DNA of 64,000 bases from Branchiostoma floridae (Eukaryota > Chordata > Leptocardii > Amphioxiformes > Branchiostomatidae), in the NCBI RefSeq assembly GCF_000003815.2, contig NC_049989.1, positions 8,179,642 through 8,243,641 on the forward strand, read 5' to 3'. Position 1 is the first letter of the stretch, and each line of letters begins with the position of its first letter. The notes beneath the pieces are model-generated. The model made no database searches. It saw only the letters and a list, made by a program, of their open reading frames with translations, and was not told the origin of the DNA. Shown in pieces: positions 3,023 through 11,181 of the stretch. The translations under genes and the position numbers were made by a program.

Positions 3023-6000
3023 TCACAGGTTGCCTCTGGCTTGCTGGTCTGCTTCGATGGCTTCGAAGAGCGACTTGAAGTTGCCTACCCCAAATCCCTG
3101 CAAAAGCAACAAAGGGAGGTGCATTAAATGTTGTGCATATCACATACCGCATTGTCTCCATTTGCATACGCATGTCTATTTCTCACTCGAAAGTTGTTAG
3201 ATTCAAGCAATAGCATTTGTGTACGCATGTCTATCTCTCACTCGAAAGTTGTTAGATTCTAGCAATAGCACCAAGTTCAACTCCCATGTATTTACAGACT
3301 GCCATACATTGTACCTGTTACAATTGTCACACAATAATAAAGTTCTTCTTCTTATACAGTGTAGTAAGTATTTTACAACTGACTGATAAGTATTGTATCC
3401 CACCGTGTGGTTGTGCCTTTGGATGACCTCCAGGAACAAAGTGGGGCGGTCCTCTACCGGCTTGGTGAAGATCTGCAGCAGGTAGCCATTGTCGTCAAAG
3501 TCGATCAGGATGTGCAGTTTCTGAACAGACATATAAAACAAACAAACAAAAAAACATCAGTATTCTTGTTTCATTCAAAATTCATCAATCACTTTTGAAC
3601 CTGGAATTACAGGTGGTGTATTTGATAAGATTACTTAGAGATAGTGGCACGTTTTGTTTGGAAGGGCTCGGTTTCGGGAGGGGGATTCATTTCATTTCAT
3701 TTCATTTATTTATTTACCCAGGAACGACATGTTGCCACTGGGGCGGTTTTCAATGCACCCTGCAAAAATTAATATAAAACAATGGTTCAAATCAACATCG
3801 AACATAAAAAATATAATATAACGAAACCAAAGTAATACATATTGGCAATACAAGCAAACTCATAATCATAAATAAAGTAAATAAGGTAGAGAATGGAATT
3901 TGTATATCAATGATATTTCAACAAAGCAAAAATAACTTACTGTTAACTGGTAAGGCATTCGGTTTTGTACATGTGTTTAAAAGATTCAACAGAGACTGCT
4001 GCTTTTACTCTAGCTGGAAGTGAGTTCCACAATACTGCACCACTACATGAAAGGGATTTCTTTTTGTACTGTAGATGAGCTTTGGGTAGTTGTAGTCCAC
4101 CCTGTGCCAGCAATGTTAATAATTTAACGGGGGATGAGCCACCCCCTGCCCCTAGTACACCTGGCACTACTTCTTACAGCAAATAGTGACATCGACATAT
4201 GGCAGTCAGCAGCTGGCTTATCAATTGATATGGAAAATCAGTAAAAACCTTATATGTACATAACAAACAAACAAACACTGTAAAGAATTCAAATAATAAA
4301 GATGCATCAAAGTATAATCAAATACTGGATACTACTACTACTACTACTACAAAGAGGTACATTGTGGAGTTCAACATTGGTTTTAAGTAGTCTGCAAACC
4401 TCAATGACATCCAGTGACTCCTTGACTTTGATCTTGGCAGTCTTGAGACGCTCCCGAAGATTCTTGTAGTACGTCTTTGGCACGACAAGGAAGTTCATTC
4501 CACGCTCGCGGAGGTTGGTGATCTAGAGATAGGACATAACAGCGTGTTAAACGTTAAAATCAGAATTAAAATCAAATACAGTCAACAACTTCCTACGAAA
4601 TCATCAAGCAATTTTTGAAGCTGTCTTAGTGTTACAATCCAATGACAGCACAATCCCAGCAATCAAAATAGAAATTAAAACATCACCCTCTTAACTGAAA
4701 AAGATAAGCATTGCAGATTTAATTGAAAGTTGGAGGAAATAAATTTAATAAAACTTCAAGAGACGAAAAAACTTATTGCTTACGGCAGAGATTATGTCAC
4801 TTGTGTTCAGGGCAATATGCTGAACCCCTGCGCCACCATAGTAGTCCACATATTCCTGCAACCATATCAAAGTATATGTAGTTAAGATATGTGCATAAAC
4901 TTCAATCTGTACCTTTGTATTGCATCTGTACCTGTGAAATCATTCAGGTACAGGTAAAGGCCTCCTGAACAAACTACATGTATTACACTGCAGGGCTCGA
5001 TATACCACCTGCATATGCAGGTTAGTGTAGGTAAAATTGGAGCTGTGCAGGTATTTCTGTTGTCTACCTGCACCTAACCTGCACTGGTCCATGTACTGGG
5101 TTTCATACATAAATGTCCCATATATATATGTGATGTAGGTGTGTATGGATTGTTATTCGCTCCATTGATAAAGTATGAAAGAAAAAATAGCACTGCATGG
5201 TTCCTGAACAATTTTAGTGTGATTCATAATTCTTAAGTTCAGAGTGGTGCAGGTAAAATTTGTCTGGTACAGGTGATTTTCAATGTTACCTGCACCAGTG
5301 CAGGTATGCAGAAAAAACTATTTTGACCCCTGCACTGGCAATTACTAGTATACCTTTACTTAGATAGCTAAGTCTCATCTCAAAGATGACAACTCTGACA
5401 ATATGAAACTTGAATTAAGAAAAATTATTAATCTTCTTGCCTTGAGATTGAAACATGTACAGTGCTAAATAATATTTACTACTCAGAAGAATACAGATGA
5501 CATGTACATGTATTTCATCACCTCGTGGCAAAATTTGTTTCCGAATAGTTACAAGTATAACACTGATTCACCTTTATCCACAGGGTAACCTATATCAAGT
5601 CGGCGGACGTTGGTTTCAAACGGCAATATTTTTACAATATTTTAGTTTGAAACCACTGCCTGTCGACTTGCTATCACGTAACACGCCTGTTTTTGAAACA
5701 TACGAATATAGGTTACCCCACGGATAAAGGTGAACTAGCGTTAGCTGCGTACCTAAACCTAGCCTGTACCAAAAGTTTTGCAGATCCACAGACCTAATTG
5801 AGGTTTTGAAGAGTGAAAAGCTTCTGTATCTTTACTCTTTGCAAGAAATGGAGCTTTCAACTAAACATCCACCTGGATCTGACTCTTCCTCTTGCCGGTT
5901 GCGGGTTCGTTGATGGGCATCTTGATTGTTTCCTCGAAGTTGGTGACCACGATAGAACGGAGGGCGCTGTACTGCGTGTGGATCTGCTTGTCGTCCACGG

Positions 6001-11181: not shown

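Follow-up and report, generated by a model that had tools for sequence, protein, structure and literature searches.

How can many short repeats, scattered through both arms of a transposable element, be replaced together while the sequence between them stays recognisably the same? The question is raised by three short elements of Branchiostoma floridae, here called E1, E2 and E3, which lie in a window of 64,000 nucleotides (the whole stretch of DNA that was analysed, and to which all positions below refer). A first-pass annotation of this DNA had described them as one transposon family with common ends, an exact 5-bp target duplication for each copy, and an interior built in each copy on its own repeated word around a TGCA core. 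The three elements are as follows.

4991-5332, + strand: E1, 342 bp, word ACCTGCA/TGCAGGT, duplication CACTG at 4986-4990 and 5333-5337
7163-7484, - strand: E2, 322 bp, word GGGTGCA/TGCACCC, duplication ATAGC at 7158-7162 and 7485-7489
9408-9898, + strand: E3, 491 bp, TGCA-nGT words ACTTGCA, ACATGCA and TGCACGT, duplication AAGCT at 9403-9407 and 9899-9903

E1, E2 and E3 are genuine insertions. All six of their ends are CAGGG, and the target duplication is exactly 5 bp in each of the three, 5 being also the length of the longest flank match. We scanned the window for CAGGG..CCCTG ends lying 80-4000 bp apart and compared their 5-bp flanks, which were identical in 4 of 192 pairs (0.19 expected). 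Three of these four pairs are E1, E2 and E3, and the fourth has a poor end match (8/13). The ends of the three elements are CAGGGCTCGAAAT-like, and their inverted match is perfect in E2 (13/13), 11/13 in E3 and 10/13 in E1. The annotated coordinates, 13-bp ends and exact duplications CACTG, ATAGC and AAGCT were retained, except that E1 and E3 each have one imperfect end, the far one (CAGGGGTCAAAAT, CAGGGATCCAAAT). The commonest 7-mer of E1, ACCTGCA, is present in 8 copies, both strands counted, and the E2 word TGCACCCA likewise in 8 copies. Exact-pattern searches outside the window returned 0, 3 and 0 stretches from viral contigs and 18 from genome contigs. These 21 prokaryotic or viral loci, several of them near a sequence end where the partner end could fall beyond, were screened by the spacing used in the window (80-4000 bp between CAGGG and CCCTG), a 5-bp duplication and an end match of at least 9/13; none of the 21 combined paired ends with a duplication, and we took them as chance matches and not as further copies, a result that carries no weight for animal genomes.

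The elements have short inverted ends and subterminal repeats in both arms, as expected for the hAT superfamily, whose ends often start with CAG. Lancelet ProtoRAG has 5-bp target duplications as well, and the end motif of Transib and RAG is CAC..TG, a heptamer type that the ends of E1-E3 do not carry. According to the literature, hAT inverted ends are short (5-27 bp; PMC3517528), scattered subterminal repeats are a defining hAT feature (PMC4890040), and classical hAT duplications are 8 bp long (PMC4890040, PMC3517528). The last of these is not what we found, since the duplications are 5 bp in all three elements, which makes them hAT5-like rather than classical hAT. The name hAT5 has been given to hAT families with 5-bp duplications (Kapitonov and Jurka, 2007, cited in PMC12730594); that group and E1-E3 have the duplication length in common, and a triplet switch of the kind described below is unmentioned in the excerpted text of PMC12730594. 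The 'hAT-5' of PMC6004678 is a numbered family with 8-bp duplications, and not a member of this group.

The CAGGG ends of E1-E3, together with the 5-bp duplications and the arrays of subterminal repeats, would fit a hAT5-like assignment. MITEs are short, non-coding, numerous and mobilised in trans; E1-E3 are short (322-491 bp), and no stop-to-stop frame of at least 110 aa overlaps any of them. We consider it probable, with some reserve, that they are non-autonomous, MITE-like elements of the hAT5 kind, and that their subterminal repeats are putative zinc-finger sites re-specified together after a change in the transposase. The earlier hAT-type label keeps its basis in the CAGGG ends and the repeat arrays, with the 5-bp duplications pointing to hAT5 and not to classical 8-bp hAT. 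That they belong instead to another superfamily with 5-bp duplications seems to us unlikely. The 8-bp duplications of classical hAT elements would speak for it (PMC4890040, PMC3517528), against which 5-bp hAT families do exist (PMC12730594). The 5-bp target site linked with ProtoRAG points the same way as the classical length, but the CAGGG ends and subterminal arrays fit hAT, and the CAC..TG motif is absent from the ends of E1-E3.

E1 and E2 had been reported as colinear, and formal alignment had been proposed as the test of their common frame. In order to compare the elements, we computed local scores between bases 16-130 of each arm, with 300 shuffles. Colinearity as written was not recovered: E1 plus strand against E2 plus strand scored 10, which 46/300 shuffles reached and which is chance, and E1 minus against E2 minus was also at chance level (203/300). 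E2 is inserted in the opposite orientation. With E2 reversed, the two comparisons (E1 plus against E2 minus, E1 minus against E2 plus) scored 22 each, whereas none of the 300 shuffles went beyond 14 (arm A) or 15 (arm B), so that the frame persisted in the alignment with both arms far above shuffles. The arms of E1 and of reversed E2 lie side by side without gaps over 83 and 90 columns. They have AAAATTGGAGCTGTGCA in common at equal offset, as annotated, and a 13-base identical run precedes the TGCA at offset 56. Homology of the element centres was rejected, as six comparisons among the centres of E1, E2 and E3 gave none beyond chance (score attained in 35 to 300 of 300 shuffles). Judged by these alignments, E1 and E2 are homologous only when E2 is reversed, and in their arms only.

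Within these arms the TGCA sites occupy the following positions, with offsets counted from the element ends.

5007-5022, + strand: E1 palindromic site pair ACCTGCATATGCAGGT, offset 17-32, just inside the end
7453-7468, - strand: the matching E2 pair, GGGTGCATGTGCACCC, an imperfect palindrome at offset 17-32 counted from 7484
5288-5305, - strand: E1 site pair of the other arm, ACCTGCACTGGTGCAGGT, offset 28-45
7190-7207, + strand: E2 site pair of the other arm, AGGTGCACTGGTGCACCC, offset 28-45
5026-5072, + strand: E1 arm A outer sites, offsets 36 (core TGTA), 56 and 79, spacing 20 and 23 bp
7403-7449, - strand: E2 arm A outer sites, offsets 36, 56 and 79, with spacer AAAATTGGAGCTG identical to E1
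9442-9488, + strand: E3 arm A sites, offsets 35, 55 and 78 (the E1/E2 register less 1)
9814-9868, - strand: E3 arm B sites, offsets 31, 39 and 82 (register identical to E1 and E2)

In arm A the facing TGCA pair makes up a 16-bp palindrome, which is perfect in E1 but not in E2. Register coincidences between TGCA sites were as numerous in 0/20000 random placements for E1/E2 and for E2/E3, and at least as numerous in 14/20000 for E1/E3. When the arms were swapped as a control, the coincidences numbered 1 and 3 for E1/E2, 1 and 1 for E1/E3, and 2 and 1 for E2/E3.

For the column counts between E1 and E2, sites were defined from E2 alone and the element ends were excluded. At the nine sites that align, 34/36 columns of the TGCA core are identical, while the triplet adjoining it is GGT at 9/9 sites in E1, and CCC at 8/9 and CCT at 1/9 in E2. 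Matches amount to 2/30 in triplet columns versus 56/81 in the other columns of the frame (Fisher p=1.4e-9), the 30 columns corresponding to ten triplets because the site at offset 36 is counted on both sides; core and frame matches also differ (p=0.002). Stricter definitions of the word left 0/24 (exact E2 word) and 1/21 (exact E1 word) triplet matches. The site mask was also moved to 5390 positions, its true one counted among them, and at no other were the triplet matches so low. Two E1 sites with a decayed core (TGTA and TACA on the oriented strand) still have GGT. The base before the core is kept at 8/9 sites and the base after the triplet at 6/9, and as these neighbours are largely kept, the replacement would be confined to about three base pairs. 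The coordinated replacement of a word in a homologous frame, as first proposed, thus holds for E1 and E2 on alignment, with the change confined to the triplet beside a kept TGCA.

The triplet changes comprise 16 transversions and 8 transitions, and the other differences 22 transversions and 12 transitions. C-to-T decay alone was rejected as the source of the switch on the 16 transversions versus 8 transitions in the triplets. A single E2 triplet among the nine keeps the third base of E1: the CCT site, in arm B at offset 31 (within 7190-7207), has the T common to E1 and to most E3 sites, and resembles what a half-switched site would show.

E3 is a weaker relative. It has nine TGCA sites in the outer 110 bp of its arms, of which six are in register with E1 and E2 and three are not (28 and 86 in arm A, 105 in arm B); the pair at 20/26 is absent. 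A 50-column block of arm A has 31 matches to E2 and 29 to E1 (null maxima 28 and 27; 0/60 shuffles each). Arm B is not beyond chance in the same block comparison (11/60 shuffles each against E1 and E2), and a wrong-arm control, E3 arm B against E1 arm A, gave 27 matches, reached by 1/60 shuffles. By local score, E3 plus against E2 minus is modest (3/300 shuffles), E3 plus against E1 plus weaker (9/300), and the minus strand of E3 at chance against E2 plus (286/300) and E1 minus (94/300). The homology of E3 is weaker than that of E1 and E2, its basis being the TGCA register (6/9) and the arm A block. At seven register positions its triplets are AGT twice, TGT twice, CGT, CAT and one misaligned, hence variable at the first base, and the word is looser, mostly nGT, like the GGT of E1. 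A repeated word is therefore present within each element, as had been claimed, but the words are not equally different: E1 has TGCA-GGT, E3 mostly TGCA-nGT and E2 TGCA-CCC, which makes two kinds of word rather than three, nGT and CCC.

This resemblance bears on the direction of the change. In gap-free blocks common to all three elements (two blocks summed), frame matches are 37/53 for E1/E2, 21/53 for E1/E3 and 23/53 for E2/E3, and triplet matches are 1/15, 9/15 and 3/15, respectively. E1 and E2 are nearest by frame yet furthest by triplet, which suggests that the E2 line is the one that switched. The simplest account is that the E2 lineage probably changed nGT to CCC at its sites, a polarity read from three elements with a single distant outgroup, E3, whose frame homology is weak (21/53 and 23/53).

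What could change so many sites at once? Hermes, a hAT element of the house fly, offers a comparison, although its target duplications are 8 bp, unlike the 5 bp of E1-E3. At bp 11-27 of its left end, two facing repeats make up a quasi-palindrome to which BED domains bind cooperatively (PMC10368747). The arrangement resembles that of E1 and E2, where the facing pair lies at 17-32: in both cases more repeats follow inward and the site is short, AAGT in Hermes. The word is different, and the majority of the Hermes repeats have no aligned partner at the opposite end (PMC10368747). The facing pair of E1 and E2 at 17-32 and the sites 20-23 bp apart, being Hermes-like, suggest the anatomy of hAT transposase binding sites. 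More generally, hAT transposases bind subterminal repeats via a BED zinc finger, with motifs that differ among hAT elements (PMC10368747, PMC4890040, PMC3143072), and the Herves transposase binds a repeated subterminal motif (PMC3143072). Herves, Tgf2/Tol2, Ac and Tag1 resemble E1-E3 in their subterminal repeats, which in those elements are transposase-bound with a family-specific motif; they differ in that the contrast of motifs described is between distinct elements and not within one spacer frame (PMC3143072, PMC4890040).

In each arm, a CAGGG end of about 13 bp is followed by a close facing TGCA pair and by further sites 20-23 bp apart. On the Hermes analogy, the TGCA sites would be subterminal repeats bound by the N-terminal BED zinc finger of a trans-acting transposase, and the triplet would be the specificity half of the site, read by the finger. 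If recognition by the transposase changed on the E2 lineage, mobility would have been retained only where the entire array suited the new specificity, and the sites would have switched jointly while the spacers drifted and the centres were freely replaced. Several observations weigh against this reading: the sample is three elements, E3 arm B is at chance by alignment, one wrong-arm control of E3 was reached by 1/60 shuffles, a swapped-arm control of E1/E2 gave 3 coincidences, the E3 word is looser than the model would have it, three E3 sites are off the register, and one E2 site is CCT. Gene conversion within the element and co-evolution of transposase binding sites had both been put forward in the first-pass annotation. 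The second seems to fit best of the two; the first appears weakened, because the spacers between the words did not change with them. An exchange of entire arms as blocks was set aside on account of the kept spacers. More tentatively, the hAT5 site may be modular, a TGCA core plus a swappable triplet, and families with the same ends in one genome would become orthogonal ('lock and key') when the triplet at every site changes together with the zinc finger of the transposase. Were this so, E1, E2 and E3 would be snapshots of specificity switching, with one transpososome architecture and different address codes.

The main rival is homogenisation within the element, in which short-tract correction, by template switching or gene conversion, spread one variant of the word to all sites and a change of transposase is unneeded. 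In its favour, the words of an arm repeat each other almost exactly, in inverted and in direct orientation; uniform words within an element are predicted and found; and quasi-palindrome correction classically acts on structures such as the 16-bp palindrome. Nevertheless, the change ends at the triplet: the spacers keep their homology (56/81), most sites retain the base before the core (8/9) and the one behind the triplet (6/9), and the spill of conversion tracts into the spacers that this process predicts was not seen in the three elements. Some nine separate tracts, each about 3-7 bp long and spread over both arms, would be needed, and we give this explanation a low probability.

Convergence appears improbable to a slightly greater degree. 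Here hAT families would have built their arrays independently, at places fixed by the geometry of the transpososome, so that the frame reflects constraint and not descent. This would suit E3, in which 6/9 arm sites are in register to 0-1 bp despite a frame identity of 21/53 and 23/53, but in E1 and E2 the spacer sequence is also common, including the 13-base run before the offset-56 TGCA and 37/53 of the frame. Finally, capture of unrelated interiors by the ends, with the words as chance or low-complexity repeats, agrees with the unrelated centres but is refuted for the arms of E1 and E2 by a gap-free alignment far above shuffles and a kept site register, and is very improbable indeed.

To our knowledge, the joint change in specificity of a transposase and of its many scattered sites is an open problem, because every intermediate should move less well. 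Under co-evolution of the binding sites, E1 and E2 would constitute a natural before-and-after pair, in which the frame persists and all nine aligned sites have exchanged their triplet. The three base pairs read by the zinc finger can be predicted from this pair, and triplet-switched ends could supply orthogonal end sets for hAT-based gene-delivery tools. hAT elements with a common frame but a different word in other animals are a further lead. In open-access literature, the matches listed for amphioxus or Branchiostoma hAT elements (titles and abstract starts) held no description of E1-E3, those listed on subterminal repeats that co-evolve or evolve in concert reported no word switch, and of 4 papers with one of six end-sequence strings in their text none had a transposon title. 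Two other systems are partly comparable. The CMITE elements of corals combine parts conserved across families with variable parts, as E1-E3 do, but are of the piggyBac type (TTAA) and show the reverse arrangement, a conserved interior with varying ends (PMC2872659). Galileo, of the P superfamily, has multiple zinc-finger (THAP) sites near its ends and is conserved between species only in about 40 bp at its tips; it differs in its long inverted repeats, and the excerpted text describes no word switch in a kept frame (PMC3688188).

All three elements are intronic in a single gene on the - strand, as had been noted from the sequence. A fragment joined from five exon translations identifies it as HPD, 4-hydroxyphenylpyruvate dioxygenase (best match E 1.8e-79). 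Each element lies upstream of a splice acceptor, at 135 nt for E1, 54 nt for E2 and 35 nt for E3, in agreement with the annotation of two of them within 60 bp of one. Regulation of HPD splicing by E2 and E3, with which these positions fit, was considered and dropped. Four neighbouring open frames have hemopexin, pleckstrin-homology and ELMO domains, in keeping with an animal host. In the HPD gene, between E1 and E2, two copies of a separate short inverted-repeat element with ends TTCACCTTTATCC...GGATAAAGGTGAA are found at 5567-5734 and 6388-6588. A 55-bp unit is present in two tandem copies at 3159-3270 (92% matches), close to the apparent last HPD exon near 3037. Elsewhere in the window, 42426-43099 is a minisatellite of 37 copies of the 18-bp unit CACAACTTAGATACGGTA (96% matches), in which several reading frames are open.
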